DNA of 64,000 nt, from NCBI GenBank assembly GCA_016630905.1, contig WBMQ01000001.1, positions 1,178,001-1,242,000 on the forward strand, given 5' to 3'. Each line of letters starts with the position of its first letter. Position 1 is the stretch's first letter. This DNA comes from Capillidium heterosporum. Taxonomy: Eukaryota; Entomophthoromycota; Entomophthoromycetes; Entomophthorales; Capillidiaceae. Shown in pieces: positions 8,698-58,058 of the stretch. Made by a program: the position numbers and the translations under genes. Below the pieces are notes generated by a model. It saw nothing but the letters and a program-made list of their open reading frames with translations. It ran no database searches and was not told where the DNA came from.

Positions 8698-9473
8698 ATG
8701 TCAGTTGGTGTAAGCGAAAAGATTATAGAAGCGAATACTTACAACCCATTTAGAGAATCTACAGCGCCAAAGGCTACTTTCGCATCCACAAACCTTTGAT
8801 CGCAGCTAAGCTGGCTGGCGTCGAAGTGGATTTCGATCCTGACTTCAAATATGGTGTTGACAACATTACCGCCGAGTACTTGAAAAAGTTTCCACTGGGT
8901 CAGATCCCAGCCTTCGAGTCAGCTGACGGTAGCCTCTTGTTAGTTGAAAGTACCGCCATCGCCTTGCACTGTAAGTTATTTTCATATCCAATTCTATACT
9001 AATGAAAGCAACCTTTTATATTTATCCAAAATTACTAGTCGTCAGCTTGAGCAAGAACTCCAACTTTGGTGGGAGTAACCTCAACGATAAGGCCAAGATC
9101 AACCAGTTTATCTTCCACGGCGAGACTCAACTTCTACCAGCCACCCTAGGATTAACTTTACCTTTCATGGGTTACAGCGAGTTTGACCAGAAAGTCCAGG
9201 ATAAGAGTATGGCATCCCTTAAAAAGAGTTTGGCTTACTTGGACCAGGTCCTCGATGGTAAAAAATACCTGGTTGGCTGATGAGGTTACTATCGCCGATG
9301 TCATTATAGCTGTCAATTTGGAGCCAGCCTATTTATATTATTGTGATGAGGAGTTCCGTAGCCAGTACCCCAACGTCACCAAGCACTTTAATAACTTTTA
9401 TGGGTTAGAGAAGGTTAAGGAAATTGTTGGTAATGTCCAGTTGTGTAAGGAGACTCCTAAGCTTAAGAATTAA
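8698..9473 (+). CDS. Glutathione S-transferase, EF1B-gamma-like, copy 1 (one-base frameshift)
   Basis: Exons are 8698-8709, 8754-8970 and 9039-9473, with intron positions identical to the other three copies: after MSVG, and after the His codon that ends the thioredoxin-like domain. The N-terminal domain shows KFPLGQIPAFESADGSL and VESTAIALH, where ES-A is the glutathione gamma-glutamyl binding turn. The C-terminal helical domain has GETQLLPATLGL and DGKKYLVG....TIADVIIAVNLE. At 9278 one extra T splits GlyAsp of the LVGDE.TIADV motif, giving GGC TGA TGA in frame. Skipping that base restores full homology to the stop at 9471-9473, giving 220 residues. Without a skip the protein ends after LVG and loses the last 64 residues. 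It could be an assembly insertion, a recent mutation or recoding. Confidence 0.8.
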
Positions 9474-9889
9474 AGATTTTACTTGTGCTGTGACTATGTT
9501 TGATTTTTGGCTTGTAGTCTTTTTATATGCTGAGTACTCTTGTGCTATGAACTTATATAGATCCACCAGTTAGTTTTTGCTACATAATATAAATTGAAAG
9601 ACAAACCATATATTATATAGACAGCTTTAGTTTATATTATAGTAGAATTTTAAAATGTAAAGTAGCTGGTATTTTTTACTAATGGCCTATTGACATATAT
9701 TGTTTATTAACCATATTCATCAACAATTAATACGTATATAAGTTTATTGTTATAGCTAATATATCGAAGGAAGCTATATGTTGTCAGGTTAAAATCCAAT
9801 ATAAATAGATTCTTGAAATAGAAATTGCAAGTACACCAATCCAAAATTTTATTTTAAAAGAATAGTTAACTAACATACTTTGTTTCATA
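9474..9889. other. Intergenic region
   Basis: About 415 bases of AT-rich DNA between GST copy 1 and the first decayed LRR gene. No feature is seen. Confidence 0.5.
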
Positions 9890-32486: not shown

Positions 32487-33425
32487 ATGGTAGTACATAC
32501 GATAACCAGCTATTTTAAGAAATTTGTTGGGGTCAACAACAAAAATGGCAAACTGTTGAAAGTCCCTTCTATAAGGGTTATGGCCTGGTCATTCATAGGT
32601 GCATTTTTGGGTATAAGTGCAGTTTCTGGGTTAACTCTGCTAACCTTCTTCAAGGAGAACTACGACGCCCCAGTTATTATGGGTTCTATAGTAAGTTTTT
32701 ATATATGCAAATCGGGTTATTGATAGCAAAGTGTTTTTAGGGAGCGATAGCCATATTAATTTACGGAGCCATTGATGTACCTCTAGCCCAACCCCGAAAT
32801 GCAAGTAAGTAAAAGGTGGAACAGTTTACAAAAGGTACTAACTTTATTTTCAAAAGTTTTAGGCAACCTTCTGTCTGGTCTAGTAGGGATAATCATCAAC
32901 CAAATATTTTACTACGCCTTGGGTGATCATGACAAGTTGACTTGGTTGAAGGCTGGGCTTTCAGTTGCCATTGCTTTGGTTGTTATGCAGCTAACTCGAA
33001 CCGTTCATCCACCGGGAGGTGCCACTTCTCTAATAGCGGTTACCGGTGGTGCCAAGGTCAAAGAGATTGGATTCCTATACCTAGTGCTACCTGTCCTCTT
33101 CAGTGTAGGTATAATGATCTTCATTGCTTTGGTGGTAAATAATATTCAGAGGCAGTACCCCCTCTACTGGTTTGATCCCGACTGGGAAGCTAAGTTGAAG
33201 AAGAGTAATAGAGTTAGTTTTGAGGATGGTTATGAGAGAGAAGATATGGAAGGTGTCGTCATGACTGCGGATATTGCTTTGGATAGTACCTTTAGCACCG
33301 CTACTACGCTACCGACTTTAGCCCATGGTATCAACGTAGAGGAGTCGGATATTGCGTCAAAAATACACATCCAACGTATAGCGTACTTGGAGAATTTGCT
33401 CAGGCAGCACAACGTCGAATTCTAA
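32487..33425 (+). CDS. HPP-family integral membrane protein, copy 2
   Basis: Exons 32487-32690, 32741-32804 and 32857-33425 give 278 residues, exactly the length of copy 1, with introns at the same codons. The membrane core is nearly identical (VMAWSFIGAFLGISAVSGL, LTRTVHPPGGATSLIAV). The cytosolic tail differs more (DLEARLLNRNRKVVVEDG in copy 1, DWEAKLKKSNRVSFEDG in copy 2). Tandem duplication with copy 1 is clear. Both frames are intact, so both copies are probably functional. Confidence 0.9.
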
Positions 33426-36117: not shown

Positions 36118-36876
36118 ATGTCCATTGGAGTAAACATTACTATATAAAAATCACCATACTAAACTTTCCCTAAATAGAAAATTTACGGAAGCGTAGGCTC
36201 GCCAAGGTTCAATAAAGTCTACTTGACAGCCAAATTTGCCAACTTGGAAGTGGATTATACTGAAGAATTCAGTTTCGGTAAAGATAACAAGACTGCCGAA
36301 TATTTGGCAAAATTCCCATTAGGGCAGATCCCTGCCTTTGAATCCTACCAAGAAAAGTTGTACCTAACCGAATCCAACGCCATAGCTGTGCATTGTAAGC
36401 TCATCTCTTTTTAAAATATTATATTAACTTTGTATAATAAAGTTGCCAACCAAAGTAAAAGTATCAATCTACTTGGTAATACGTTGGGTGAAAAGGCCAA
36501 AGTTCAACAATTTATCTTCTATGTCGAAACTCAGTTGGTATCTCATTTCTTGGGGCTGATGTTGCCATTCTGGGGCTACGCTACCTTCGACGACAAGAAA
36601 CATGACTTCCATTTGCAAGCCGCTTTGAAAGGCCTCTCCTACTTGGAAACTGAACTTGAAGGTAGAAAGTATCTAGTAGGGGATAGTTTGACAATTGCTG
36701 ATATTATTGTCAATGCCGATTTAGAGTACGGGTTTAGATATTATATCGATGCTGAATTACGGGCCAAGTTCCCAAATGTAGTGAAGTATTTTAATAATTT
36801 CTATGGGCTGAAGGAGGTAGTAGATGCAGTTGGCAGGTTCGAGCTGGCTAAGGCTAGCCCTAAATTGAAGCCTTGA
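36118..36876 (+). CDS. Glutathione S-transferase, EF1B-gamma-like, copy 4
   Basis: Exons 36118-36129, 36178-36394 and 36443-36876 give 220 residues, frame intact. It begins MSIGKIYGSVGSPRF and carries KFPLGQIPAFESYQEKL, TESNAIAVH, LLGNTLGEKAKVQQFIF, TQLVSHFLGLMLPFWG and EGRKYLVGDSLTIADIIV. In the glutathione-binding region the usual ADGSL turn is replaced by YQEKL, the most divergent of the four copies there. Intron positions are conserved with all copies. Confidence 0.88.
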
Positions 36877-37196
36877 TTAATAAATTAATTTCTAAAAGAT
36901 TTGTTAGTTATCTATAATGGTAATAAATATTTTATTGTAGGTAGATTTGTTTGGTGGTATAAAGAGTTAGATTAATAGCTATAGTGCAGTTTATTGATCA
37001 ACATCGTTGGCAAATTTATAGTTGTAAGTAACCACTAAAAGTAACCAAAAAATCTAACCTATGTAGATGAATAAACTCAAAGGAATATTCTTAAACTAAT
37101 AAATGATCTTTTAGGAAAGCTAAACAGTGTAATTTTCCAATCCACTTTCCATACATATATAATATCTAAAAAACAAATTACCTAAGGTTTTAAAAA
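36877..37196. other. Intergenic region
   Basis: About 320 bases between GST copy 4 and the transposase-derived gene. I see no obvious terminal inverted repeat. Confidence 0.45.
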
Positions 37197-38582
37197 TTAC
37201 TCTTTCACCTTCTCCACTTGTTTCAAATAGCCTAACAAACTGTCGTTGGCCAATTGGACAGCAAATTTCAACTTATCTTGAGGTAGCTTATCGCAGGCCT
37301 CCAGTAGTCGCGATCTTAAGTATTCCCCCTCCACCAACATATCTCTCCGAACGTTGGGTAGTACTGCATTCCAAAAGTGATGTACAGGAGCAATATTGGG
37401 GTCATGTTGCGGTAGCTTGACGAACTTATGACCACGATGTAAAATGATATCTTCGATAGCTTTACAGTCAAACCCAGGAAGAGCACCTAGCACCAAATAA
37501 TGTTTACTCAAAGTTGGGGAACTATCCATCTTATCTAGAATTTGGGTGATAAAGCCGTAATAGTTGCGTTTGTTGGGGTCACTTGAATTGTAGGCCTTGT
37601 AGTTGAGGCTACGCTTGCTAGGTGGGTTCAACTTGCGGTTGAGGGAGTTGGTGGTATCTAGAAGCTCAACTTGGACGACTTGCCTGGAGGTGATGGCAGC
37701 TATAGTCGTATGAGTAGGCGTGTTGATGGTAACAAATTTAAGAGCCTTATCCTCACGACTGGAGTGCCAGCCGTAAGGTGCCCTATGGTTGACGCAGAAG
37801 TAAGCGTGGTCGATAAAGATACAATTGGCCATGAAATTGATGTCGGTTCTCGAGATGAAGTTGATGAAGTTCATGACTTCTTGTGAAGTATTTAAATCTT
37901 GAGGTAAGGCTTGCGATATATTCATCTTGAGGAAAGAGAGGCTTATCTTTTCGAATAAATAGTCGCGTACGATGTTGAATTTAAACTTAAAGTTGGGGAT
38001 ATGCTCTGTAAGCTTACTGAACATATCTTGTGAGGTAAGTAGTGGATCCTTGTCGAAGAGCTCGTATATAAGGTGGCTGTAAATCTGGCCTAGTTCGGCT
38101 TTGGCGTTAGTGTTGACTATGGCTTGCGTCCTACACATGTCCCAATCTGGATTCTCTTTTAATTTCTGCACCCATCGTTGCGCTACTCGGCTGGTAACTT
38201 TAGCCATCCTACCTGCTTTGGCAGCCGGATACAGCTTGACTTTGAAGTAATAGAGAAACTGCTCTTTAGTCTCTTTACTATATTTGCGCCAGATACGTTT
38301 CTCCTTCCGGTGAGATTTATCAATTGCTGTGTCGTTGGTATCGCTTAAATATGCCACGTCCATAAGCATGTTGTCACCCAAGTCGTCCATTTGATCTAAA
38401 AAATGTTGGCTTACATTGATGGAGTTGGTAGAGGCTTCATTTTGGTTTTTATTGATAGCCTGCAGGTAGCTGGCCTTGGATCGTAGGAACAAAGGTATAT
38501 CGTCTAAGTTGTTGGAGTCTGTTCGCTCATCCTGTGTCGTTGCTTCATTATCTTTGTTGTTCGTTTGCGACTTCATTTTCAA
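37197..38582 (-). CDS. Transposase-derived DDE-superfamily protein (probably inactive)
   Basis: A 461-residue intact single-exon frame. Residues about 97-146 are a helix-turn-helix (RKYSKETKEQFLYYFKVKLY, AKVTSRVAQRWVQKLKENPDW), as in Tc1/IS630-like transposases. Residues about 250-415 resemble the DDE_3 catalytic domain. The first Asp is kept (CIFIDHAYF, D258). The second (VLDN in the family) reads VLGA (364-367). The third block (LPPYSPDLNPIE in the family) reads LPQHDPNIAPVHHFW, with His in place of Glu. With two of three catalytic residues gone it should not cut DNA. A long intact frame despite this suggests a domesticated gene, perhaps DNA-binding. No flanking inverted repeats are recognised. 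Confidence 0.7.
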   Translation of the reverse strand: MKMKSQTNNKDNEATTQDERTDSNNLDDIPLFLRSKASYLQAINKNQNEASTNSINVSQHFLDQMDDLGDNMLMDVAYLSDTNDTAIDKSHRKEKRIWRKYSKETKEQFLYYFKVKLYPAAKAGRMAKVTSRVAQRWVQKLKENPDWDMCRTQAIVNTNAKAELGQIYSHLIYELFDKDPLLTSQDMFSKLTEHIPNFKFKFNIVRDYLFEKISLSFLKMNISQALPQDLNTSQEVMNFINFISRTDINFMANCIFIDHAYFCVNHRAPYGWHSSREDKALKFVTINTPTHTTIAAITSRQVVQVELLDTTNSLNRKLNPPSKRSLNYKAYNSSDPNKRNYYGFITQILDKMDSSPTLSKHYLVLGALPGFDCKAIEDIILHRGHKFVKLPQHDPNIAPVHHFWNAVLPNVRRDMLVEGEYLRSRLLEACDKLPQDKLKFAVQLANDSLLGYLKQVEKVKE

Positions 38583-39914: not shown

Positions 39915-40465
39915 ATGGCCTCCTACTTCTCAAGAGCATCTTTCAAAGCGTTTATGGATCACCCTGCTGGTAATACATTTGTTCTTTTATTTACTGTCTT
40001 GGCAAAACTAATCGATTTTTGGTTGAAAAGGTCCAAGAACCGTACATTTCTGGGCCCCTGCTTTCAAATGGGTAATTTAAAAGGATAAGTAGCTTTTGTT
40101 AAACAAATTTTTAGGGTTTGGTAATAGCAGGTCTAGGTGACTTGAGCCGTCCAGTTGAAAAGATTTCCCTCTCCCAAACTGGAGGTAAAGTTTTTGTACT
40201 TTTAATTGTATAAAGTATTGAAACCTTGAAAATAGCTTTGGCAGTAACTGGTCTAATTTGGTCCCGATACTCATTGGTAATTATCCCCAAGAACTGGGGG
40301 CTATTTTCAGTTAATATGTTCGTGGCTGGTACCGGTCTCTACCAGCTTTATAGGGTTTATACGTAAGTTTTAAAAATTGAAGTTGAAGTTGATATGGTGT
40401 TTTCTAGTCATAATCCTAAGGCTATTGAGAATGTAGCTGCTCCGGTATCTGAGAGTAGAAAATAA
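39915..40465 (+). CDS. MPC2: Mitochondrial pyruvate carrier subunit 2
   Basis: Half of the heterodimer that brings pyruvate across the inner mitochondrial membrane. Five small exons (39915-39969, 40031-40071, 40115-40184, 40236-40362 and 40408-40465) give 116 residues. None is long enough to stand out as an ORF by itself. Joined, they read HPAGPRTVHFWAPAFKWGLV, IAGLGDLSRPVEKISLSQ, ALAVTGLIWSRYSLVIIPKN and WGLFSVNMFVAGTGLYQLYR, matching the MPC2 family with three hydrophobic segments. The start is the first Met after an in-frame stop. The N-terminus is short (about 15 residues). Introns are 43-61 bases. Confidence 0.92.
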
Positions 40466-40749
40466 ACTTTTGGTTTGATGTGCATATTGTGTAATTGATA
40501 TTTTTAATTGCCGAGCTTTTTAGTTTAGAGTATTTAGCTTGATTAATTTGAATTATTCTCTTGAAATAGAATTTATGTTACTTTTGGTATTCATATACTA
40601 TGTTTTATAGCCTATATTTACTTTTAAATATGGGTAGATAAATTTTGTTCAACTCTGAAATCAGCTTACATAAATAATTTATTTAAATATCAATTTTTAA
40701 TAAAACAGCTGTAAATCCAAATATGTCTCTACTCTATACACCATAGCGA

Positions 40750-40977
40750 TCATTCTTCCTCTGAGTTCTCCGTATCCACTTGTTGGTTAGCGTGTATCGG
40801 GGTTGGTTGTTGCGTCAAAGCTGAACTGAGGATAGTTAGCTGATGGTTTACATTGTTAGGTAGTAGGTGAACAGCACTGGTTTGTGAAATAAACTTGGAA
40901 AGGATGGAGCCGGCTTCCTTACTGTTCAAATCTTTTTGGTCGACGATTTCGAGTCTCAATGGTCTTGGGTCCTTCAT
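40750..40977 (-). CDS. Small hypothetical protein
   Basis: A 75-residue frame with coding-like composition: PRPLRLEIVDQKDLNSKEAG, then SILSKFIS, a glutamine/threonine-rich middle and an acidic end (TENSEEE). No signal peptide or membrane segment. I do not recognise the family. The Leu/Glu-rich helical start and small size fit a subunit of a larger complex, but that is a guess. Confidence 0.45.
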   Translation of the reverse strand: MKDPRPLRLEIVDQKDLNSKEAGSILSKFISQTSAVHLLPNNVNHQLTILSSALTQQPTPIHANQQVDTENSEEE

Positions 40978-41329
40978 TGCTGTTTAGTATAAAACTTGGG
41001 AAAAGCACAACAGAATCTTTAAAATTTTTGGAACTTTGGAAATTCTCAAACAAGTGAACCAGTGATTTACCGGCTAAAAAGCTTGGCCAAGCATGCTTCA
41101 AGTTAAAGAATCAAAGATCCGTGATTTCAATTTACCTTAGTCAACTATACCCGAGAAAAGAGTAACAAAAAGAGTTTAGCATCGACAGTTTAAACTAGCG
41201 ACCTAGAGTATCAACTTATAGTCGCCAACCAAAGCAAAAGAAACGTACTTATAAACAACCTTACCAACTACTTTCGAATTTTACAAGTATATCTAAAAGC
41301 GAATACTTTAGGAATCTTTTAATTTAACT
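40978..41329. other. Divergent promoter region
   Basis: About 350 bases between the small unknown gene and SERINC. A 60-codon minus frame (40919-41101) overlaps the small gene in another frame and is not called. Confidence 0.45.
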
Positions 41330-42788
41330 ATGTGTCTCTCATGTATGGGTGGCCAGTGCTTATCGTGCTGTGCAAGTTCCTTATGCCAGTGTGGCTACAA
41401 CAATATAAACTTGACTTCATCTATAGCTACCCGTATCACCTATGCTGTAAACCTATTTTCAACCAATCTTAACTTTAACTTATATAGGTCATCTTCCTTT
41501 TAAATTCCGGATTTGCCTTCCTAGCTACTACTGATTGGGCGATAAAGCAACTAGAGTCCTGGTCCTACGGGTACCTCAAGTTTACCTGCCAGCAAGGTCA
41601 GTGCTATGGTTTCTTGGCAGTAAGTTAGGTTCATATCCACATTACTTACCTCATAGGTACATCGCATCTGTTTTGCATTAACGTTGTTACACCTGGGTCT
41701 AGCTCTTCTAGTAACTGGAGTTGAGGACACTTCACACCCACGAGCTTCCATCCAAAACAAGTTCTGGGCCGCCAAGTTTGCTGCTTGGTTTCTGTTCTTG
41801 GTGCTCAGTTTCTTTATACCTAATGGGTTCTTCCAAGTTTGGGGAACTTACGTAGCCATGTTGGGAGCTACATTGTTCCTGCTGATCCAATTATTGCTGC
41901 TAGTTGACTTCTCACACACGTTTGCTGAGATGTGCATCGACAAGTGGGAGCAGGACGAATCCAATAGATGGAAGTACATCTTGATATCAGTAACAGTTGG
42001 TTTGTTCCTGGTTGCCATATTACTTACTGGATTCCTGTTCGGTTTCTTTGCCGGGGATGGGTGTGGCCTAAACCAATTTTATATCGCATTCAACATGGCC
42101 ATCGCCATCGGCGTCTCAGTTTTGGCTGTACACCCTAAGGTCCAGGCCATGAACCCTAGATCCGGTTTAACTCAAGCTGGGCTCGTCTCAGCCTACTGTA
42201 CATATTTGGTAACGTCAGCTATTGTCAACGCGCCAACCACCCCCGGTTACGAGCACTGCAACCCTATCGACAGTTCCTTGACGCCAAGGGCTACTTCAAT
42301 TGTACTAGGTGCTCTCTTCACTTTGGTTGCTATTGCCTACTCCACCTCACGAGCTGCTACCCAATCGACGCAGCTCATCTCTACACCAGATGCGGCACTA
42401 CCTCTAGATCTCCCCGAAATACGCAGTCAGGCAGTACGACGGGGTATCGAAGCTGGATCCCTATCGGAGTCGGACCTGGAGGTGGCTGCTGATGATGAAA
42501 AAGAGGGAACTGCCTACTCCTACCCTTTATTCCATGTTGTATTCGCCTTGGCCACCATGTACGTCGCCATGTTGGTCACCAATTGGAATGCCAGCTTGGA
42601 GCACACCAGTGGGAACTTCATCAACATTGGTAGTTCGCCAGCTGCCGTTTGGGCTAAGATTGTTTCTGGGTGGGTCTGCTATACGTTGTACGGGTGGACC
42701 CTCCTTGCACCAGTCCTCCTTCCCGATAGGTAATTTTTTGTAATATGCAATTTTGCTAACTTGGTTTACTTATAGGGAATTCTACTAG
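41330..42788 (+). CDS. TMS1: SERINC/TMS1 family membrane protein
   Basis: Multispanning membrane protein of the serine-incorporator family. Exons 41330-41446, 41488-41619, 41657-42729 and 42776-42788 give 444 residues. The last exon codes only the end of PDREFY. The cysteine-rich N-terminus (MCLSCMGGQCLSCCASSLCQ) is typical. So are the HRICFALTLLHLGLALL region, FWAAKFAAWF, LVDFSHTFAEMCIDKWEQ and the last helices (VVFALATMYVAMLVTNW, VCYTLYGWTLLAPVLLPDR). The family has 10-11 membrane helices. Members have been linked to serine-lipid synthesis and, in animals, to lipid scrambling. The fungal role is unsettled. Confidence 0.95.
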
Positions 42789-43601
42789 ATACTTTGATGT
42801 CACATATATATATGAACTTTTAAAGTGGATGGATTAAACTATTGTAATTAACTATTTCGAATTTATAAGGAAAGTTTATTTAGTTGTACACTACTAAAGT
42901 TAATTGATGTAAGTAGTTTCGTCCTTTGACTATTAGCAACCCAATAAAAATGCTATTTAAGCTTGCCATTAATGTATCTTTCATCTGCTTTAAGTAGTTA
43001 TACAATATTCTTCGACATAAACTAATATAGTTATCACTTTAGGGATGGTTATTGTGTCAATCTAGTAGCCTATATAGTTTTCTCCTATTGAGTATATATG
43101 CCGATTTAGCATAGTTAACTAGTAACCCAATCCAATCTACTTCCCATATCCCTTCTCTTCACATTATTTATCTTTACTACTATTGAAGTCCGACAGAACT
43201 TAAAGACTCATACGAATATAGGATTAAAAAATCAGTAGCATTATATATATCGTCTTACTAAACTTGTGAGCTTACGTTTTAAGTATATATGATTTGTAAA
43301 TATTAGATTTTTCAAAACTTGATATTGGCATAGTAAAGTCGTAAGTGTTACAATTTCAAGCTATTTGGAGTAACTACTAAAATCACATATACAATCAAAT
43401 TGCTTATCGATTTATCACACCTGCAACATGGATCATATTCTTTACAATACGAGTTGGTATATTACTATAATTGCGTAGGTTGACTAAAACAGCTTTCGAT
43501 ATCAAAACCAAATATAGAAAGCATGGGTTTTTTGAAATATGACGTAATAGCTTTGGTTATTTTTTCTCGAAGCTGCTTCTTGTGTTCCAAACTTCTTCAA
43601 C
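42789..43601. other. Intergenic region
   Basis: About 810 bases of AT-rich DNA, the promoter side of SMC2. No feature is recognised. Confidence 0.5.
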
Positions 43602-46600
43602 ATGTATATCGAAGAGCTCATTATAGATGGTTTCAAGTCATATGCAGCACGTACTCACATTACAGGATGGGATGAGAAATTCAATGCGATTACTGGTTTA
43701 AATGGCTCAGGAAAATCCAACATTCTCGACGCAATTTGTTTTGTTTTAGGCATCACCAATTTATCACATGTAAATCTAATATGCTATATCAGTTGTAACA
43801 AGAATTTAGGTAAGAGCCAACAATCTACAAGACCTAGTTTATAAGAGAGGTCAAGCAGGAATTTCAAAAGCTTCAGTCACCATAGTTTTCAACAACAACG
43901 ATACTAGCAAAAGCCCAGTTGGTTATGAGCAATATAAGCAGATTACGGTAACCAGACAGGTAGTTGACATTGGTTAATCAAATTAAATAAATTAAGATTT
44001 TAATAGGAGGTCGTAACAAGTACATGATCAACGGACACAACTCCCAGCAGCAAGCGTTAGCCAATCTTTTCCAGTCGGTTCAGCTCAACATTAACAATCC
44101 TCATTTCTTAATTATGCAAGGAAAGATCACAAAAGTTTTAAATATGAAGCCGCCTGAAATTTTAGCAATGATTGCCGAAGCTGCAGGTACTAGAATGTTT
44201 GAAGAGCATAAAGAGAAGGCCTTTAAAACTTTTGCAAAGAAAGAAAAGAAACTGGAAGAGATCCGAGTGGTAAGTAATAGCTCTTCAATTACATTAACAG
44301 GGCAAAGATACTAGATGAAGAAATTGGTCCTAAACTTGACAAGTTACGTGAGGAGAAGAAGGACTACATTGAGTTTCAAAAAGTTTCAACTGAATTGGAC
44401 TTTAGCAAGAATATGGTTGTAGCGTACCAGTACTGGAAGAACCAGGTAATATAAATTTGCTTTAAAAGTAACATATTTCTAGAAAAAATTAGAACAAAGT
44501 GGTGGTGATTTCGAAGCTAAAAAGAACCACGTCCAGCAACTCAGCTCTGAAATAGACCAAACCGAAGTTGAAATTAAGAACATCGAGGTTGAAATAAAAA
44601 AGTTCCAGGAGTCACAAGTAAACAAATATTTGGTGTTTTATCTCAAACTCTTCTAGTCAAAAAATGTCAAGACGAAAAAGCTTGACGAGGAAGTTAAGAG
44701 TGTCTCCAACAACCTCTTCACTTTAAAAGCACAACTTGATATCAATTTGAAATCGACCAAAGAGGAGGAGTCAGCTCTAAGTAAAATAAAGAGATCCTAC
44801 GAGGAGGTATTATTTATTTATTAACTTAAATTTAAATCAGATTATAGTCCACCAAAAACCTGGAGTACCATCAAAGGGAGAACCAAAAAGTGCAGGAAAG
44901 CTTCGCCAAGGTCAAACAGGACTATGATTTGGAAAGCTCTGAAGTGGAAAAAGCAGAGGAGCTTCTTCAAACCTTGACAACTGGTATTTCTGCAAAGGAA
45001 GGCCATGAAAGTGGTTATATCCAGCAAATTCAGGGTATTTTATAATATTTATTAATATCTAACTCTGGCCATAGATTCGAAAAAGGAAGCTGCTAAACTT
45101 GATTCCACAATCGAAAACTACCGACTCGGACTAGAGGACAGTCACCAGCAACTGAAGAAACTCAAAGCGGATGAGGATCGTACTCTTTATGAAAATCAAG
45201 AGTTGATTGCCAAGAAAGCAAAAATTCAATCTGAGTTAGATAAACTCACTGTAAGTAGAATATAGCTGCCATTTAGCTAAAATTATTTAGGAGCAGATTG
45301 GTCAGTTGACATATGATCCCAATAGTGAGCGAGATATAAATCGTCAGCTTAATCAGACTACTGAGCAGATTCAAAATCTACAGGAGCGCAAATACCGTCT
45401 GCTTTCCCAGCTTAACAAGCTAGAGTTTCACTACACCGACCCTCATCCTAGGTTTGATAGATCCAAGGTTAAGGGTTTGGTTGGTCAGCTGCTCGAGGTA
45501 GATGATGCCAAATTTGCCACCGCTTTAGAAATCTGTGCTGGGGGAAAACTCTACAATGTAAGTTTGTTTTTAGTTGATTTATTTATATTCTTCTAGGTCG
45601 TTGTTGATTCAGCTACTACCAGTACCAGCTTGCTCAAGCACGGCCAGTTAAAAAGCCGAGTTACCATCATCCCCCTTGATAAGATCAATCCATTCCGACT
45701 CCGGGCTGGGGTAAACAAGTTTAGTTTCCTATTTTTAATATTAGTTAGGCCGTCTCGACTGCTCAGAATATTGCTCCAGGGAAAGTGAACCTAGCGTTGG
45801 ACTTGATCGGCTACCCTGATGAACTAGAGGCGGCTATGGCTTTCGTCTTTGGTGGTACTTTGATATGTGATGGTAATTTGCTATCTAATATTTTACTAAT
45901 ATAAAAAGATCCGGAAACCGCTAAAGAGATCTCCTCGAACAAAAGAATTGCAAAATCCGTGACGTTGGACGGTGATATTTACGACCCATCTGGCACTTTA
46001 CAGGGTGGTGCCAAAGCGTCATCCTCAGGACTCCTACAATCGTTTGCGGAAATCAAGCAGCTAAATGACGAAATAAAGCTATTGGAAGCCAAGGTCGATG
46101 TCTTGAAAGCCCAACTCAACGAAGTACAGCGGGCATCCGGATCTTACAGCAAGCTGCAGGAACATATTGATATCAAAAAGTACGAGGTGGATCTAATTGA
46201 ACAGCGTTTGGCCACTAGCTCCTACGCTAAGGTAATATTGCCTAAATGCTTTGCTCATCCTTTTAGAACCAAGAAGCGATCAAAACCTATCAGCAACGTA
46301 TCGACACAACCCAATCGGAATATAAGGCAGCCAAAGCCAGGTTAACCGAAGTCGAGACCAAGATCAAGTATCTCGAAAAGGAGATGAAGGAATTCAAAAC
46401 CGACAAAGGTTCTAAGCTCAACGAACTTGAAGTACTAGTTCTTCCTAAGCAATTATTAATTCGTTTTATCAGGCCAACCTTAAAAAATCCAAAGCTTCAC
46501 TCAAAATGAAGCAGAACACGTTCAAAGAGCTGCAAAAGGCGTCCCAAGTCAAACAGCTTCAGCTTGGTAGCCATAGAATCGACATTTTTAACTAATCTTT

Positions 46601-47872
46601 ATTTCTAGAGTCGATGATAGTTGATCACAGTAGTTACAACGATAAAGTCAAGGCTGCTGAGTCGAGTCTCAGTGGATTCCGAGAGATCGATGCTGACCTG
46701 AGCCTTCGCATCAAAACCGAAGAAGTAAGAAATGCCGCCCTAGCTAAACTAACTTGAATAGAAACTGCTCGCTGATATGGAGAACAGGCTGATAAAGCTT
46801 ATCGAGGAGCAGAATCGAGACAATTTGGAGCTGCGAGCACTGGAAAAGTTACGGCAGACCAAGCGACAGCTGGTGTCAGACAATTTGGTTACCCGCCAGA
46901 CGCTGCAACATGAGATCGATAGGTTCGAGAAGGATCTTAATGAGGCACGTTCCACCGTCTCCAGGCTGGAGCGGGACAACATCTGGATCACCGAACAGAA
47001 AAGGTAAATCATTACTAAAAATTCAGCTAATCCTAGCAGCCAGTTCAATGTTCGGGATTCCAACTTTGATTTTTCCAAGCACGATATCCGAGAGCTTGGC
47101 AACCGACTCCCAGCTTTGGAGAAGAAGTTCGACTCGCTGCGTAAGAAGATCAATCTCAAGGTCATGTCCCTCATCGACAGGTAACAACTTAAAAACACAT
47201 CCAAATCTCATATACCAACTCTAGTAACGAAAAGAAGGAAGCAAACTTGAAGCAAATGTTGACCAAAGTCAAAAAGGACAAAGGTACCATCGAATCTACC
47301 ATCCGTACCTTGGACGACTACAAGAAGGAGGCTTTACACAAGACCTTTACCAAAGTCAACGAGTACTGAAATTCGGTTGTAAATATACTAACTTTTAACT
47401 AGGGATTTTGGGGCCATTTTCGCTGATTTACTACCTGGCAACTTTGCCAAGCTGGAACCACCCTCAGGTCAGACCCTAATGGAGGGTTTGGAGGTTAAAG
47501 TGTGCCTAGGCGGCGTGTGGAAGCAATCTTTGACCGAAGCTATCAGGAGGGCAGCGTTCTTTGATTGCTTTGTCGTTGATCCTAAGTCTACTGCAGTTTA
47601 AACCGGCTCCTATGTACATATTGGACGAGATTGACGCGGCCTTGGATCTGAGCCATACTCAGAACATCGGTCAGCTGTTGAAGACGCGGTTCCGCACCTC
47701 CCAGTTCATTATAGTTAGTCTGAAGGACGGTATGTTCAACAACGCCAACGTCCTGTTCAAGGCCAAATTCCGAGAAGGAGTTTCCATGGTCGAGGTATCT
47801 ACCTTTATATTTCTTGCTGATTATTAACTTTGTTTTTGAATATTCTAGCGAGTTGTCAATCGAAGGATGTAA
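43602..47872 (+). CDS. SMC2: Condensin subunit SMC2 (one +1 frameshift before the ABC signature)
   Basis: Core ATPase of condensin, which compacts mitotic chromosomes. About 17 exons, all with 35-60 base introns. The N-terminal head begins [20 protein letters not shown] with Walker [21 protein letters not shown], then [39 protein letters not shown] and [15 protein letters not shown]. Two long coiled coils flank a hinge ([20 protein letters not shown] to [18 protein letters not shown]). The C-terminal head has [20 protein letters not shown], then [18 protein letters not shown] and Walker [21 protein letters not shown]. At 47539 one extra G separates KQSLTE from LSGGQ and puts the signature out of frame. 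Skipping it restores the family. The end (RVVNRRM) is in a small last exon. Confidence 0.93.
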
Positions 47873-48088
47873 GAGAAAAAGTTGTAGATCTGAACTATTC
47901 AAATAAAAGCTTTATAAAACTGCTACCTCAAGAACTAACTAGTTGAACTATCAAAATTTATTAGTTTATTTTTACAAACGTTTTAGAATTAGTTTGGAAT
48001 GATATAACTTATTCAACAAGTACTTTGCCACATTAGAACAACTATTTAAAACATAAAAGTTCCAGTATCCACGAGGATAAACAAAGCA

Positions 48089-49811
48089 TTAGGCATCCAA
48101 TTTGACCTTGTTAATATATCTTTCCAAGTCGCTAAGAGCATCGTGAAGTTGGTTGTAGGCCAGCGACTTTTTCAACGGGTCTACAGCTAAATCTTGCTGG
48201 CTGGCCTTCTGCTCTAGCAGCTGCTGCAAGTTGAGAACTTTATCGATGAGATCGTGGTTCTCCTCGATCAAATTATCGACCTTGGCCACGAAGTTATCTA
48301 AGCTGAATGGTTGGTCACTATCATTGTCGTCTTCAGGAATTTCCTTGTACAGTTCGAGCAGGGTATGCATGATGTCGTCCAGCTCCGTCTCGGCGTCGAC
48401 TGCGATAGTATTTTCACCATCATCCTTTGTAGCTGTACTAGCTTGAACCTGCTGATCAATATGGATGCTGGATTTGGACTGGATGTGAGAATCTAGCTGG
48501 TCTTGCAGTTCTAAGACACGGTCGTTGGCATTCTTGAGCTGGGTGTCGAATTTAGTTAACAAATCCTCTTGCTGGTCCAAATGCTGCGCCTTGAGGTCCT
48601 CGATCTGCTTGGCTTGGACGTCGATGGTAGCTAAAGCTTCAGCCAATCGTGTTGACTGCGATTCGTCGAGCGTTGAGCTAGTGGTTGATATGTGTGAGTT
48701 ATTGAAGCGGTTGGCTAGAGCCTCCATATGTTCCTTACGGAACTTTGTCGTTGCCTCCCCGTTGTCGATGAAGGAGTCGTCAACAACGGCCATCTGGCCT
48801 TCCCTTAATGAATTCAGCTGGAAAGTCAGGTTATCACTCAATGCCTCCTGGTTGCGGAAGGCTAGGGCTAATACAGCCGAAGTGTGTTCGAGTAGTGTAC
48901 GGTGGGTATGCCAGCTCTGGTGATAGCAGTGCCACAGCTCAGTTGCCGCCGCTTCAACCTTCTTGTCGGCTTGAGCCAGTTGCTCCTGAGCTTGCTGAAC
49001 CAATTTGCGGTTGTTGGTATGTAATTTGATCAAGACTTGGGCCCCATTACGCATCTTGGTTTCTAAAGCTAATTTGGTCGTCAAGGTTTGGATCTGGGCT
49101 TGGTTGTTGAGGTGTTGCTAAAAACATTTAGCATTAAAAATTAAAAATAATATATAATTACCTTCCACAATCTATCTTTGACCTCCAAAGTCAGTACCTG
49201 AAATGGCTGGGCAGTATGTAGTGAAGACTCTATTAGGTGTTGTAACAGTAGCTGGTCAGCAGTTGATATTAGTTTGTCGGTTGCTAGGTAAGCCGCTTGT
49301 GGAAGTTCCAACTCTGGCTTCAATTCTAAGTTGGCTATATGAGGTGCCAGTGAGGCTTCAGCTGGAGGGGGTACAGCAAGCCCTACTGATTGAAAACCAT
49401 TTGTTTTAGTTGGGGAGGTAGTCTGTTGAACGAGTTGTTGATAGTCCTGAGTGTTGAGACCGTTTGGAAAGAAGTCAGACCGAGGTCTAGCTCCTTCTAA
49501 CTTGATATGTTCGCGCTGGATACTCTTGGTTCTTGCTCGACTAACTGAGGCATCCATGGACATTGAATTTTTGTGCTTTATAGTTTTGACAAAGTACTGG
49601 TTGGTGTCAACTTCAGCTTCGGGCAAAAATAACTCGTCCTCAGCTTCTCGACTTTCGGAAAATACAGTAGAGTAGACATCCGTTTCGTCAATAGGTTTGT
49701 CGTTGTTGAGGAAGGATAGTTTGGAAAATCGTTTGAATCGGTTGGCTTTGTCCTAAACTCACATACTGTTTAGCATTTCCTTGAAATTTAAACTATTACC
49801 TTGTAGTTCAT
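48089..49811 (-). CDS. Uds1 (up-regulated during septation) domain coiled-coil protein
   Basis: Exons 49800-49811, 49162-49752 and 48089-49117 give 543 residues. The first exon codes only MNYK. The N-terminal 120 residues are polar and probably disordered. Residues about 155-240 match the Uds1 pattern: a helix (ADQLLLQHLIESSLHTAQPF), then VKDRLWKQHLNN, then LTTKLALETKMRNGAQVLIK, the most diagnostic stretch. The rest is coiled coil (AQEQLAQADKKVEAAATELW, ATIDVQAKQIEDLKAQHLDQ) with an acidic tail. Fission-yeast Uds1 is induced at septation; molecular function is unknown. The gene is convergent with SMC2, about 215 bases away. Confidence 0.7.
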
Positions 49812-51279
49812 ATCGCTTGATAGTTCAGGAAAATGTTAAAAGGTTGGGTAAGAGCTCGGCTGCTGTTTATATAGCTCGTGGCGGTTGAAAAGATGCTTGA
49901 ATTGTAGCTGGTTCGTAAAATTTAGTTCCTAGAGTTTTGATCAAGCTTACAAAATTTTCAGTTGCCTACTTTTGAAATTGAGTTAAATTTAGAACTTTTG
50001 AATTCGGCCGGTTTCAATGTCAGAATATGGATTAAAAAAGCAAAGGACTTTGGCTTAAGCTTCTAGACAAAGTGGGCAAATATAGGTAATGTTCCCATAC
50101 AGTTGGTTATGGCCCTTTCTTCATATAGTATTAGCAGTAAAGGATTGGAGCATATGAAGAATGGCTTTGAGTTGAGTAGAATTCAATTTTAAGTGTAGCC
50201 TGAGATATTTGAACTATCATATAGACATCTGCTTTGAACAATTATTGGGCTACCACCGTACTTACCAAATGGAGATTTTCAAAGTACACTGGCCAAGTGT
50301 AACTAATTGCACTTTTCAAATAGCTTAGCTTTGGATATTCTCTATCTTTTGCTTTTTTTAGGGATGACTTCTCGGTATTGGTTCTATCGAAAAGGATTTT
50401 GTATGAAACTGTAACTCGTCGTTTTACAGTATAGTATGAAGTCTTTTTCGATTAAGCCCATATTGAAGGTGTTGTCACTAAGATTAGACCTCTGTTCCGT
50501 CAAGATTTTGAACTTCAAAAGTCCAAATTTAGGATTTCCAAAAACAAAATATTTACATTTAAATAAAGGATGAGCAAAGACTATTGAAAGTTCAACCTAA
50601 CTTTTAAATATATATATCACTGCATTATAGAGCCTTTATAACTAAAAGTTAAACTTGTAGTGCTCAAAACTATAATGGACTGAAAGCTCTTAACTCCTTC
50701 GCTACATGCGATTTACTATAGATATTTAGCAAATAATGTTCCTGTAATTAAGAGAATCTCAAGGTTTAATTTGACAAAGTTAGCTTTTCTGGAAATGCAG
50801 CTGATCCTTTAGCCATCTGGTAATGAAGGTGTTAAATTTGGAAGCGAGTTTGCCAAGCATGCCCAGATTGACTAGGCACTGTGCCAGGAGTTAGTCCAGG
50901 GTATGTCACCCTACAAGTTCTTGTCTTCAACATAGGACAAGCTTACCTTTAGACTCCTATGAAAGCCATGTATTTTATATTAGCCTTTTGAAACTGTAGG
51001 TTTAAGAAGCGAAAAAAGGATGAGAATATTTGAGTTGGATCAATTTATAAGGTAGCGGCCCAACTCCCAATTAGTAATTTTTTGTGCCAGATGGACGGCT
51101 TTCACAAAATGCTACTCATCACAATAAATGAAATATTTAAATTAATGTTTCAAAAGTGATTGCATAAGCCTTTAGATGAACCATATAGGAACCTTTTGAA
51201 TTCCAAAATCAGCCCATCCCGTAAATAAACTTTGTTATTATCCTATTCCACCTCTTAGCCGTTGTTGTTTAATCTTTTC
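49812..51279. other. Gene-poor region
   Basis: About 1.5 kb. Short protein-like fragments on the minus strand near 50.8 kb (LGMLGKLASKFNTFITRWLK, about 50790-50880) end in stops and could be a relic of an unknown element. No intact gene. Confidence 0.4.
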
Positions 51280-51660
51280 ACCATTTCAGTTTCAGCCCAG
51301 ATTTAAATAAAGGCTTGAGATCACTATATAGAACCGTCAAAGTCCATATCAACTCCCTTGCCAAGCACAATATCGTAAATCGTAAATTTTTGGACCTCAG
51401 CAAGCGTGAATTGATCCACAATTTTACTCGTAACCTACCTGCACTAGCAAACCAAAAAATAGAGTAGCATTGAAAAGACATCCTTTAATATATCCCATCC
51501 AGTTGAACAAACTTTCAGAATAGTATCGCTTTTCCTCAGGTAGTAGTAAAGGCCACACAAACTAAGAGCTCCATCAAGGTCGAGTTTGGAAATTTCTTTT
51601 GTGGCACTATCAAGGTGGTTGAGTAGGAAGCTTTAACCTAGCAAACATTAGGTATAGACT
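51280..51660 (-). pseudogene. Relic of an unknown protein gene
   Basis: One minus-strand frame gives protein-like text: SFLLNHLDSATKEISKLDLD, GALSLCGLYYYLRKSDTILK and VCSTGWDILKDVFSMLLYFL (about 51440-51635). After two close stops it resumes with VDQFTLAEVQKFTIYDIVLG and KGVDMDFDGS (about 51325-51420). I cannot name the family. The stops might lie in an intron with a gtaggt donor, but then part of the readable text would be intronic. It is more likely eroded. Confidence 0.35.
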
Positions 51661-54315
51661 ATATCTTTTGTTGGTGCTTCATTCCAATCTAGTAAAAGTT
51701 GGATATTTTAAAATGTTTGTAGTAGCATAAATATTAGATGTCACTACGTTTAAGACTATATCTTTAATATCATAAATATTATTTTTAACAGATATTGAAC
51801 TTGTATTCCATTCGTAGCTTCTAGATGAACTCTTTCAAAATGCCTATAAAAGAATCTAGTAATATTGGATGAGAATTCTTAAAGTTCCCAGCTACTTCAT
51901 TCATTTTCACCACACTTTTTCTTATAAACTTGAGTGGAAATGTAAAGTAAATTGAAATGAAGGTTAAAAGAATCTATTAATGTATAGCTACACTATTTTT
52001 GAGATAATAAAACTGAAGTTGGTAAATTTCATCGCTTTCTTTAGTCCGTTGACTACGATGCTATTCTGTGTCTATTTGAAATAGTGCTGCTCCATTACTT
52101 TTTAATGATAGCCCGATTTTAATATAACATATGTCCGTTTGAAATGCTATTAGCTCTATATTTCAGTGACAAGCCGACTATATATATTGTTCATCTTTTT
52201 GAAATGGCTTATAAATTGAATCCCAAAGACAAGTTGGATATAATACCACTCTGTATCTACTTAAACTATCGTGAATCATTTCTAGCTGCCAAAGTCAAAT
52301 GTAATAAGTTAATATCTTTGGGCTAAGACAGTTTATTCTAGGTTGATTAGTTATGTCAATGTGTTACAAAATTAAAAAGCTTTGCTATTAAATCGCCGAA
52401 ACAATTTGATAAAAAGGCCCTCGAAAAGACGGTCTACATATACACATGCAATAAAATGGCTCATGGGATCGAGTTTAATCAAAATCTCAAGGTATGTGTT
52501 GTTAAACCTTGCCAAATATGCAGTTTTAACGTACTGCCAATACAAAATACATTGCAAGTTGAGGTGAAGTAGTCCAAGTCACAGCGAACGAAAAAGGTAT
52601 AAAAACAGAGGAAGTCTTAGTTTAAGAGTTATACAGGCCATACAATGAAGCTCTCCATCGTTGTGCCCTTGTGCTCTATCTTCCCCTCCACCTCAGAGAT
52701 CATTAATTTGTTCAAGTGTCCAAGTTCCATAATCCTTTGAAACTCGAGACGTAAATCTTAGTAACATTAAATCCAAGTTGGCTTTCTTAGTAAGATGTGA
52801 TCTTTTCAAGCATGCTAAATCTAAAAATAGACAAGCTGTCTTTTCAAGAATGGCTGGTAATGATCTCAACAGCGCTTAAAAGGCCAAATTGCAAGAAGCT
52901 GCAACTTGGCAAAAGAAATTACCAAGGAAAATGGATAGATACTTGCTAAAAAGAAGTCTATATGAAGGAGAAGCACCTCAGATACCCCAAGCAACCAATT
53001 GTAAGCTTTATTACAGTATTAGTTTGAAATCCCGCCCTAAACTAATACTATGTTGAATTAAAGGATACTGGACTATAGTTTTTTTGAAAATTAATGTTGA
53101 ATTTACTGTTATATTTGTTTATTTTTATGGTTGGGCAGCTAATGATAGTAGTACATTCACCTTGACAGTTGAGCTTAATACCCATTGGAGAATCAAAGAA
53201 TTGTACTGATCTGAACTAACAGACATAAACTAATCGACTGATAGTTTTATGTTGACTAATTGAACAGTAGTCGACCTAGATGGTTAGATAAAACCTCATT
53301 GTGCTCTGTTCTACCTTTCATACTGACTAAAGATCGTCAGATAAATTGAGTGGATAGTGTTCTACTAAAAATGCAAATTTACACTTTATAACTCACCTAG
53401 ATGTCTCATTAAGTTTGAGAGCCAGTCACATCGACAATAATATAACTAAACCAACTTGAGGTCTTTACTTGAGTGGTGCTACTGAAGGTATTGGGTAAAA
53501 CCAAATACATATAGGTGGAAAAAGTGATTTGGATCACAGTCGCTCAATTTAAACCTTTATTAAATTGGGCACAGCTTAGGAAGCAAACTTGACGGTGAGC
53601 TTAACAATGCTGTTAAAGTAAATTGCCTTAAAGCTGTAAAAGCTTGCTAAACAGCACATTGAGTTATGTACTTGAATAAAATCCTCCAACGTAACCAGTC
53701 TAACAATATATATAAATATACTGTAAACATCATAAAAGACTCCATTCCTTCAACTTAGTTTCGTCAATACTGCTATTGCCCCTAAAGCTTTGAATTTAGA
53801 TAGTATAGTCTTTGACACCAACTACAAAATGCAAAAATCTGGGATACCTATTTTATAGGCGTTTAAAAGTGATCCACCTTTAACATTTAGTGCCTTCAAA
53901 ATATTGGTAACATTTGTAGCTCAAAGCGATAACTATTTAGTTTTATAGCACATAGCTTACATTACAGCATTCTTAAATTCTATTATATTAAAGGTCTTGA
54001 TGACATGCCTAAACGCTCTAAACCAACTTTACCTCTTATAAATAGTACTTTTACCTATAAATAAAACCTACATTATATATATATAGAAACTAAATTCATT
54101 CTTTACTGGCCATTATTATAAGCATCAAAGTTGGCACTTTAGCGACAAAATATATTGGATCAATTGTTTCTTATAAAACTTTTAAAATTGCTTTAGCATT
54201 CGGACAACTGAAAAACCTTGAAAGGGATCTAAACTTAAACTTAATTGGTCAATGGTTTTGGTCAACTCACTATAAACCTTTGAAAGTTGTTGAATCCTTT
54301 TCTCTACAACTCAAG
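51661..54315. other. Gene-poor region
   Basis: About 2.65 kb, AT-rich, apart from one possible secreted-protein relic at 52645-53003. Short frames at 52144-52567 have no motifs. No RNA gene or repeat array is seen. Confidence 0.45.
52645..53003 (+). pseudogene. Possible relic of a small secreted protein gene
   Basis: A TATAAAAA element (about 52599) is followed by an ATG at 52645 with a signal-peptide-like start (MKLSIVVPLCSIFP), similar in style to the secreted protein at 13.4 kb. The frame then breaks. Further text (SKNRQAVFSRMAGNDLNSA, a stop, then KAKLQEAATWQKKLPRKMDR and YLLKRSLYEGEAPQIPQ) is readable to about 53000. No gene model is possible. Confidence 0.3.
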
Positions 54316-54829
54316 ATGGCTGAAGACAAAGCTACCAATAACTCGACTCAACCTGAAGAAGTCGAAGTCGACAAAAGTGGTCAAGCTGGTGAAGCAACCA
54401 AAGACTTGAAACAAATCGAAAAAACTCAAGCAGCAGAATCGAGTATACCTCTAGCTAGTGCAACCTCCCAAAAAGCCAGTTTCGAAGAAGTAACTTTATT
54501 TAATTCTCAATCATAATTAATTGCTTTTAAAAATATAGACATTTAAGGCCTTTAAAACCGATCTAGTTAAATCAAAAGTCCAAAAGGCCTTAAAGTACGC
54601 TTTTATATCGTTAAAAACATTTTTAATATATATTTTTTACAATAGGCAACGAGAGTACAGTTCAGTAAAAGTTGATGAAAAGGATGTCGATTATTTAACT
54701 AAAGAATTGAACTTGAGTTCAGATGAAGTAACTGAGCTGTTGAAAGTTTTCAAGGGAGATGCTACCAAGCTGCTAGAAGAGTACTTTACTAAGCATGTGT
54801 CAACCAGATCGTTGCTTCAACTTATTTAG
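54316..54829 (+). CDS. HYPK-like protein (NAC/UBA-type C-terminal domain)
   Basis: Exons 54316-54489, 54548-54594 and 54646-54829 give 134 residues. The N-terminus is acidic and disordered (QPEEVEVDKSGQAGEATKDL). The C-terminal part, QREYSSVKVDEKDVDYLTKE then LNLSSDEVTELLKVFKGDAT and KLLEEYF, fits the UBA-like fold of HYPK, with the VKVDEKDV strand and the GDATKLL helix. HYPK binds the ribosome-associated N-terminal acetyltransferase NatA and acts as a nascent-chain chaperone. The match is by pattern, not by close identity, so another UBA-like protein is possible. The C-terminal extension (KHVSTRSLLQLI) is unusual. Confidence 0.6.
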
Positions 54830-55858
54830 TAGAGTTAACACAAAAGTAAAAAATAAAGTGTGGAGCTTCTAGTTTAAATTGGTTGGATTAGGTAAGAGTT
54901 TTTATTTCTATGCGTAGTTATAATGTAAACATTAGTGGATATTTTAGTATTGTAAATATCACATACTTTTGTTCTATTTATTATTATAGGGGTTATTTGT
55001 AAACTGAATAGTTGGTTATAAATTACTAGCATAGGTATGAAATTAGGTAGGTGGCTATGCCTAAAGTTAAATTTATAGGGTATTCTAAAACTATATTTCA
55101 AATATGTTCTCAATAAAATCTTATTGCTATACATATATCGAATGCTGCTTTACTTTGAGTTTACTTTACTACCATCAATATACTTTTAATTCTTGCTTAT
55201 TAGTAAAGAAATAAATATATAATATAGTCTGCTATAAAACAAATTGAAAGATAGGGTATAGTGATTTATAAATTGATAAATCCATAAGGAAATATAGTTA
55301 TAAAGAGCAAACCTCTTTGGCTAAAATTATCAAATAAATGCAAATATATAAAAATAATGGACCGTAGTAAAGTATTAAAACTGTATATGTACATCGATAT
55401 TTCTCAAGATATAGGTTCCGATCTCAGCTATGGGATTAACCTGCTTCCAAGTTCATATGTTTTTGGGATTTTAAGATACTGAGATCATGCGAAAACTGTG
55501 CAAAATGGAACGAGCTCAAAAAATTCGAAAGCCACTGATGTATATCCATCAAGGTTTTACGGTACTGTTGTTTAAACCTAAGGCCTTGGATCTAAAATTG
55601 GCACCAATTCCATTTCCGAATCGTTTATTTGAGTTTGGAGTTTGGAAGTCTGTTAGCCTTCAAATGACGAAGTATCGTTCCATCCAAACTTCTGAATTTA
55701 AGAAGCTTGGAAACTGAAAAATAACCGATCCCCTGAAAAATAATAACTCCTTTGCTTAATTTAACCTACTTTACCTAACTACAACACTATACTTTAATAC
55801 CAACCCGCTCTAAATCAACCTAGCCATATTTTACATTAACTCATAACTGTAGACAGTA
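54830..55858. other. Intergenic region
   Basis: About 1 kb, AT-rich. A 76-codon frame at 55487-55717 has no motif. Nothing else is seen. Confidence 0.45.
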
Positions 55859-58058
55859 ATGGATTCAACTTTGTCCCAACTTAGAGCCTTCCGACCCATG
55901 GCGGCTATCCAATAACTCAGCCAACAACCTCAACCTTACCAACAACAACAATGGTGGTGGCAATAAATACATAACTGATAGCTTAATATTAGATACCAAC
56001 GTAACTACCATATTGAAGGAAGTAAGAAACTTACCCAACATCTACTTTCAAACTTTCCAACTATGTTCCGATATGGAGGGTAACATAAGTGTTGCCGCTT
56101 TAAATAAAATTTTGAATTCAACTGGGCTGCAAAAGAACGTCACCAACCAAGTAACTATCTTGTTAATTTTTACAATTTATATATATGTTTGGTAGATACT
56201 GTATTTGGTAGTAGGTATGAATCAGACCCACATTGACAAGTACGAACTCTACACAATTTTGGCGTTTGTCGCTTTAGCTCAAAAGAACATTGACCTCGAG
56301 GTGGACAACCTGCTTTTGTACAAAGATGGTAAAAGTTTTAATTAAAATGGAAAATCTAAGTTCGAATTGTAATAATAGATTTACCAGAGCCCATATTACT
56401 CAACCTAGATCAGATTAACTTCAACAACTTGAAGAGTCCACCACCACCCCCAGTATTCTCAACCTCCACTTCCAACTCTACTTCCAACCCCAACGGAGCT
56501 GAGGACCCTTGGCGCTACTCCAAGTTCTCTTCGTTGAAGACAGTAGACTTCAAGAACAATTCCGTCAAGAGTAATTTGTCCAAGTTGGAAAACGTACCCA
56601 ATTTTGCCCCGGACTACGTCGAAGTTGTCGAAAGTGAACAGTTGGGTGGCACTATCTTCAAATTTATCAACTATTTGGTAGTCAGCAAGGTAAATTAATT
56701 TTGTAAATTAAGATGGATATTTATTATGTTTATTTAGGTACGTAATTGTAAAGTACTACGTAGATACAGCGACTTTTTCTGGTTGGATAGTATCTTGGTC
56801 AAGAGGTACCCTTACCGTATCCTACCTAAACTGCCTCCCAAAAGGTTTATAGGTAAGCTACTTACTCACATGGCTGTATTTTGATCATATATTTTTGGCA
56901 ACTTCTGTAGGTGACCAACAGTTCTACACCAGTCGCCGAATCGGACTGACTCGATACCTCAATCAGCTGGTCACCCATCCCACCTTGAACCAGGATTCCT
57001 TGGTCAACGCCTTTCTATCCGAACCCATCACTATGCAGCAGTACCGCCTTGACTTCGAAGTGCATACTTTTGAGGAGATAAAGTTCAACAAAGTCAATCT
57101 TCAAGAATACCAGTACGAGGAAGTTGTGAATAAGGTCATCAAAGTCAAAGAGGATGTCAATGCGTGCTTCTTGAAGTATAAGACGTTGGTCGAGACGCTG
57201 GATAGACTGGTTAAACGACAGATAGGTACCTATTTTTGATTCATGGCGCTTGTAATTTATTGACACTTATTTCCTTCTAGCTAACAGTAAAGATTACAAC
57301 AGTTTCGCCAAAGCTCTCGAGTAATTTTTATTTAGCTTAAAAAGCTGCTTATATATTTTGAATTAGGGTACATATCGACCAGAAGAACGAGTTGGACCAG
57401 ACGACCAGCAAGCTGCCAGAGCTTACTACCAACTTGAACAAGGTGGCCGATATCCTGAATGAAAACGTAAATTTACCTGTGTACGTCTCTTATTAACCAG
57501 CGCCCTTTATTTTTATTAGGCTAATATCGCAATTGAAGATGTCATCGAAAAGTTCTACAGGCATGTAGACCTGATTGAAGCTCTAAAGGTAAGCTATTTT
57601 ATCCATCCCACTGTCTTTTTACTTGAGTAACTCCAACTAACTTCCTTTCACCTTACTTTTGAACCTAAAATTAGAACCTGTTGGACCGAGCGCAGCCTTA
57701 CCACGAAGATTCCATCGAGCCTTTAACCTCCAAGATACATTCCAAGCATCAAGCCATCGACTTCCTTTCTACTTCTACCCCCAGTACTCCCAACCCCTCC
57801 ACCCCTACCAACGAACAAACTAGTAGTCAAATCAGCAAGGTCAAGTTGGAGTTGGAGGCTGATCAGTTGAAATTAGAGCAGCTGACGTTGAACTTCAAGT
57901 TCAAGATCAAATGTTTAGAGTTGGAGATTCATTATTTCCTGAATAAGCATAAGGATTTGCAAGGCATCTACAAGGGGTTTATGGACAATCGGTTGACTCT
58001 GTTTAATGGGCTGGCCAAGCAGTTTAGAATTTTGGCCAACTGTATGGATCTGGTTTAG
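55859..58058 (+). CDS. MVP1: Sorting nexin MVP1 (PX-BAR; +1 frameshift near the start)
   Basis: Endosomal coat protein that recycles or sorts vacuolar cargo; the animal relative is SNX8. At least ten exons. The N-terminal MDSTLSQL is out of frame with the DPWR motif that follows; skipping one base near 55883 joins them. Next comes an EH-like region (VTTILKEVRNLPNIYFQTFQ ... YELYTILAFVALAQ), a poly-Pro linker and a second DPWRYSKF. The PX domain carries the phosphoinositide-binding pattern RRYSDFFWLDSILVKRYPYR, ILPKLPPKRF and RRIGLTRYLNQLVTHP. A BAR-type coiled coil follows (VNKVIKVKEDVNACFLKYKT, LEQLTLNFKFKIKCLELEIH). The frame is clean after the first 10 codons. Confidence 0.88.

Follow-up and report, generated by a model that had tools for sequence, protein, structure and literature searches.

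Frequent +1 frameshifting has been described in Euplotes, where the proposed mechanism has a stop codon occupying the A site while the P-site tRNA re-pairs (PMC5009743). For the genome of T. brucei Lister 427, INDEL errors have been traced to a collapsed diploid assembly, in which allelic variants had been merged into the consensus (PMC8445201). Here, single-base frame changes are described in a fungal assembly of 29.5 Mb in 44 contigs, both in the window, by which we mean the whole stretch of 64,000 nucleotides that was analyzed (C1:1178001-1242000), and elsewhere in the assembly. By hand count, 15 homology-supported +1 events were found, 4 of them in the window and 11 outside it. Two further events, both outside the window, lack one base, so that +1 changes make up 15 of the 17 events. 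The initial annotation had described all shifts as going one way, which applies to the confirmed window sites but not to these two. The pattern is a real property of the assembly and most likely not one of the organism. We assign a probability of roughly 70% to the reading, drawn from the sequence itself, that the extra bases are consensus errors arising from the merging of two slightly different haplotypes, i.e., an assembly artifact.

Genes in the window contain short introns. Among named relatives of its Serinc-type protein, the best one comes from Massospora cicadina (59% identity), which suggests an entomophthoralean fungus. Five +1 disruptions had been proposed for this region. Those in the GST gene, the EDEM-type gene (two), and SMC2 are present in the sequence, whereas the one in MVP1 has no homology anchor (Table 1). 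In GST copy 1, the GST_C profile (PF00043) is matched from position 10 to 50 and then from 51 to 92, with only the T at 9278 standing between codons, as had been claimed. Three further GST copies in the window read on through KYLVGD... in a single frame. Altogether, the window holds four EF1-gamma-like GST copies (8760-9473, 20276-20952, 22305-22997, and 36184-36870), the last three of which are unshifted where the first one shifts. The first frame change of the EDEM-type gene exists but had been misplaced at 27374-27376; it must lie upstream, at about 27366 to 27372, because the conserved E (TETC/SETC) at 27373-27375 is already in the new frame. Its second change, reported at 27436-27440, was found within 27433-27440. 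The extra G reported for SMC2 at 47539 was recovered as well. The sequence up to 47538 aligns to residues 293 to 337 of PDB chain 6qj1_A and that from 47540 onward to residues 338 to 419, so this single base falls between the adjacent residues 337 and 338. PX-domain matches in two exons downstream of the N terminus support the identity of MVP1; its ATG at 55859 sits one frame off the long open frame, and the N-terminal piece matched none of the Pfam families. The window also contains two tandem copies (30131-31200 and 32355-33425; 73.7% alike), the second of which includes an open frame for an HPP-family membrane protein, and, on the minus strand at 37197-38582, an open frame of 461 residues whose match to the DDE_3 transposase is weak and falls short of Pfam's cut-off.

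Table 1. Positions of frame junctions and flanking gene pieces in the window
Feature	Position	Strand	Basis or remark
GST copy 1 before junction, elongation-factor-1-gamma-like, two exons	8760..9277	+	GST_N 6.2e-09; GST_C positions 10-50
GST junction word GGCT for one Gly	9275..9278	+	GGC/GGT synonymous; zero-frame stop next
GST copy 1 after junction	9279..9473	+	GST_C positions 51-92; EF1-gamma 5dqs_A
EDEM-type gene, extent of Glyco_hydro_47 match, exon by exon	26978..28358 (C1:1204978-1206358)	+	Profile matches
EDEM-type gene, first junction	27366..27372	+	Not uniquely placed; ACAG and GTCA both allow a silent third-position pair
EDEM-type gene, second junction, TCAG = Ser, then GGG GAA	27433..27440	+	TCA/TCG synonymous
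SMC2 junction word GAAG for one Glu	47536..47539	+	GAA/GAG synonymous; structure alignment
MVP1 N terminus	55859..55884	+	Main open frame offset by one from that of the ATG; CTTA (Leu) as a possible word

To survey the rest of the assembly, Pfam families were searched over its whole length, a junction being defined as at most 16 bases between matched pieces, and the listings were read by hand. HSP70 (47 matches, 45/45 candidates scored) yielded five +1 junctions in four genes, located on C23, C41, C1 (two in one gene), and, in an Hsp110-like gene, on C6, together with one missing-base case. One junction each was seen in GH47 (19 matches, 14/14 scored), on C12 and in addition to the window gene; in SNF2 (26 matches, 26/26 scored), on C6 (L062); in kinases (141 matches, 126 of 278 candidates scored), on C23; and in ALDH (13 matches, 11 of 20 candidates scored), on C12. 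Apart from one weak junction on C7, none was seen in TCP1 (41 matches, 39/39 scored), and none at all in tRNA synthetases (17 matches, 16/16 scored), actin (36 matches, 35/35 scored), or kinesin (40 matches, 35/35 scored). AMP-binding proteins (15 matches, 14 of 51 candidates scored) and MFS transporters (9 matches, 9 of 153 candidates scored) likewise showed none; wherever only the best candidates of a family were scored, broken genes were likely overlooked. The junctions are spread over several contigs and unevenly distributed among gene families. In the affected genes, no damage other than the single base was seen beside the junctions.

A scan of the fetched loci added, among others, the +1 events L021 and L010, which we take to be an SNF1-type and an AGC kinase, respectively, and a -1 event in L020. 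The latter (C3:761981-765736, minus strand, near 814) is a missing-base shift in a kinase-cluster gene to which loss of a silent third base can be fitted by eye. The first ab initio scan had low power and missed the window sites. After retraining, it returned eight +1 events and one -1 event under the stricter setting; the looser one gave 19 and 5, respectively. These counts include apparent false calls on the antisense strand. A search for insertions in untranslated genes, using tRNAs, was uninformative (63/2,727 candidates scored). Introns were rejected as an explanation of the junctions, given that the gaps between matched pieces never exceed 16 bases, compared with about 30 to 60 bases for intron gaps as judged by hand from the listings; the internal stops listed for the C41 and C6 HSP70 matches were assumed to be introns. 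The apparent truncation of an SNF2 gene on C12 turned out to be an ordinary intron, and this candidate was discarded. Elsewhere, HSP70-like matches occur in several frames, many with stops, and are apparently relics (C44:335k-990k, C2:407k and 441k, and C32:697k). They were left out of the counts, and the two that were fetched (L045 and L046) looked decayed.

Most junctions have a common signature: a word of four letters, XYZW, is crossed by the frame, and the codons XYZ and XYW are synonymous, mostly through a C/T or an A/G difference. Examples are CCCT (Pro), GACT and GATC (Asp), GAAG (Glu), GGCT (Gly), and TCAG (Ser). The initial annotation saw no obvious slip motif at the sites; this holds in part, but the silent third-position pattern was missed. 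To evaluate the pattern, the shift was placed by homology alone in 14 events, and the best-scoring reading was checked for a silent third-position pair. Such a reading was obtained in 12/14 events, with a transition available in all 12; the first EDEM junction passed weakly, having 11 tied readings, and the two failing events, L021 and L010, were scored against distant kinases. When a random base was inserted, 78 of 200 simulations fitted, 45 of them with a transition (binomial P = 4.6e-4; transitions, P = 9.6e-7). Duplication of a base gave 65/200 and 37 (P = 6.2e-5 and 1e-7), and extension of a run gave 92/200 and 56 (P = 2.7e-3 and 1.2e-5). As a positive control, the second allele of a silent SNP was inserted, which produced a fit in 158/200 cases and a transition in 149 (P = 0.41 and 0.27). 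The observed pass rate agrees with the writing of both alleles and disagrees with random, duplicated, or run-extending insertion, at P values that are optimistic because the idea arose from most of the same events.

It should be noted that 11 of the 14 events in the test, plus MVP1, were already known when the signature was conceived, and that the ALDH, L021, L010, and SNF2 events were found later. Three of the later ones (ALDH, L021, and L010) entered the test, where the automatic scoring passed one and failed two; by eye, all three and SNF2 fit. The two missing-base events are compatible, again by eye, with the loss of a silent third base. The 14 events comprise neither L003, L023, L026, and the second L010 event, which lack a homology anchor, nor L049, where a run simply differs in length; also outside the test are MVP1 and L062 (SNF2). 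An earlier version based on HSP70 only was more lenient, passing 128/250 random-base insertions and 225/250 positive controls.

We infer heterozygosity at the junctions, as well as the responsible consensus step, from the silent-pair signature. The assembly would have collapsed two haplotypes that differ at mostly silent third positions, and the consensus would have kept both alternative bases side by side, adding one base and shifting the frame by +1. Occasionally it would have kept neither base, and one would have been lost. The true alleles would be intact and ordinary. Keeping both alleles of a silent SNP would account for the size of one base, for the direction, and for the lack of decay. 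The initial annotation leaned toward assembly error, and in this respect it is supported, although it overlooked the silent pairs and misplaced one site.

Differences of a suitable kind are present in the assembly. Two short contigs, C17 and C18, nearly duplicate parts of C4 and C41 (99.3% and 99.9% identity, respectively, over about 7 kb each), and these pairs may be separated haplotypes or duplications. Over about 13.9 kb, C18/C41 and C17/C4 together show 25 transitions, 5 transversions, and six indels, and such transition-rich differences are the kind that the merging of alleles needs. C14 also matches part of C2, as seen from matching hits only. On C23, two inverted, near-identical kinase copies lie about 6 kb apart (C23:2888494 and C23:2894322; 99.6% over 1,575 bases). 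They differ by 5 transitions, 1 transversion, and one indel and were kept out of the haplotype difference counts.

The same contigs provide evidence for a different reading, namely, that the extra bases are plain residual sequencing insertion errors, random or run extending, that occurred independently of heterozygosity. All four one-base indels of the two contig pairs fall in runs, as does the indel of the inverted C23 duplicate. One of the differences, an extra C in a run on C17, disrupts an open frame whose C4 counterpart is unbroken; this is a plain run-length difference and a misfit to the merging of alleles. In addition, the extra base at the second EDEM site, in SMC2, in MVP1, and at several HSP70 junctions can also be read as run extension. 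On the other hand, the silent-transition signature appeared in only 37 to 56 of 200 simulated insertions, compared with 12/14 observed events. On balance, plain insertion error is doubtful, at a probability of well under one-half.

The merging of alleles on its own predicts neither of two further regularities. These were tallied in 12 clear cases, from which MVP1 was excluded, as were three events readable with more than one word (EDEM1, L062, and the first HSP70 event on C1), and in which the words of L021, L010, and C6 were set by eye. At 5/12 clear junctions, the zero-frame codon that follows is a stop, where 9.2% would be expected for silent transition pairs in long open frames (P = 0.003). 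Given a T as the fourth base, a stop follows in 5/8 cases against 29.7% expected (P = 0.056). Furthermore, in 11/12 the pair of third bases is ordered alphabetically. If the consensus software always writes alleles in a set order, this could explain the alphabetical order and much of the stop excess, and shifting at stops could explain the stop excess. Part of the excess may also stem from ascertainment, because the ab initio scan and the initial annotation could both see stops.

Genome-wide +1 recoding, either by four-base decoding or by programmed frameshifts of which some occur at stop codons, would be a major discovery if true, and it accommodates several observations. The +1 shifts lie in conserved genes without evident decay, they dominate the events at 15/17, and the stops found next to five clear junctions resemble those of known +1 sites. 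However, 7/12 clear junctions have no adjacent stop, two events are of opposite sign, and shift sites vary from one HSP70 gene to another, with two full-length HSP70 matches being unbroken. In the 36 longest open frames, with 15,361 codons in all, ten junction words each occurred in frame 24 to 161 times; these open frames came from the fetched loci, some carrying events, and were not each confirmed as a gene. The words are therefore neither reserved nor avoided, and recoding by a simple motif is unsupported because these four-letter contexts are frequent in frame. Recoding also does not depend on synonymy between XYZ and XYW, but 12/14 events show a silent pair. To our knowledge, no recoding mechanism demands that the skipped base be a synonymous alternative. 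The present data make recoding very unlikely. A wobble-based version acting in essential genes, in which XYZW is decoded as one residue when the third and fourth bases are interchangeable for the same tRNA, T is the favored fourth base, and a following stop is a frequent trigger, is slightly less probable still.

Real loss-of-function indels, in pseudogenes or null alleles, are hardly credible even though HSP70-like relics with stops do occur elsewhere in the genome, given that the affected genes belong to normally essential families, such as SMC2 and HSP70, that the junctions are undamaged beyond one base, and that the C1 HSP70 and EDEM genes each carry two events of the same size.

Consensus errors that combine both alleles thus remain the preferred reading. 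A literature search for this artifact found no paper. The signature suggests that haplotype-merging assemblies can break conserved genes in a recognizable way, and a word with synonymous third and fourth letters could be screened for without reads to distinguish such an artifact from recoding or pseudogenes.

Compared with the known systems, the present case resembles Euplotes (PMC5009743) in that many genes need a +1 shift and a stop comes next at 5/12 clear junctions. It differs in that the in-frame stop at the shift is absent from 7/12 and that no single codon is common to the sites. Like the homopolymer-length errors of long-read assemblies (PMC8812927), the extra bases would be residual single-base errors able to break genes; unlike with those errors, the silent-transition signature, found in 56/200 simulated run extensions, is seen here in 12/14 events. 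The likeness to T. brucei Lister 427 lies in apparent frameshifts in otherwise normal genes. There, reads and phasing backed the explanation (PMC8445201), whereas here it is a silent third-position signature, in a fungus, that points to merged alleles.
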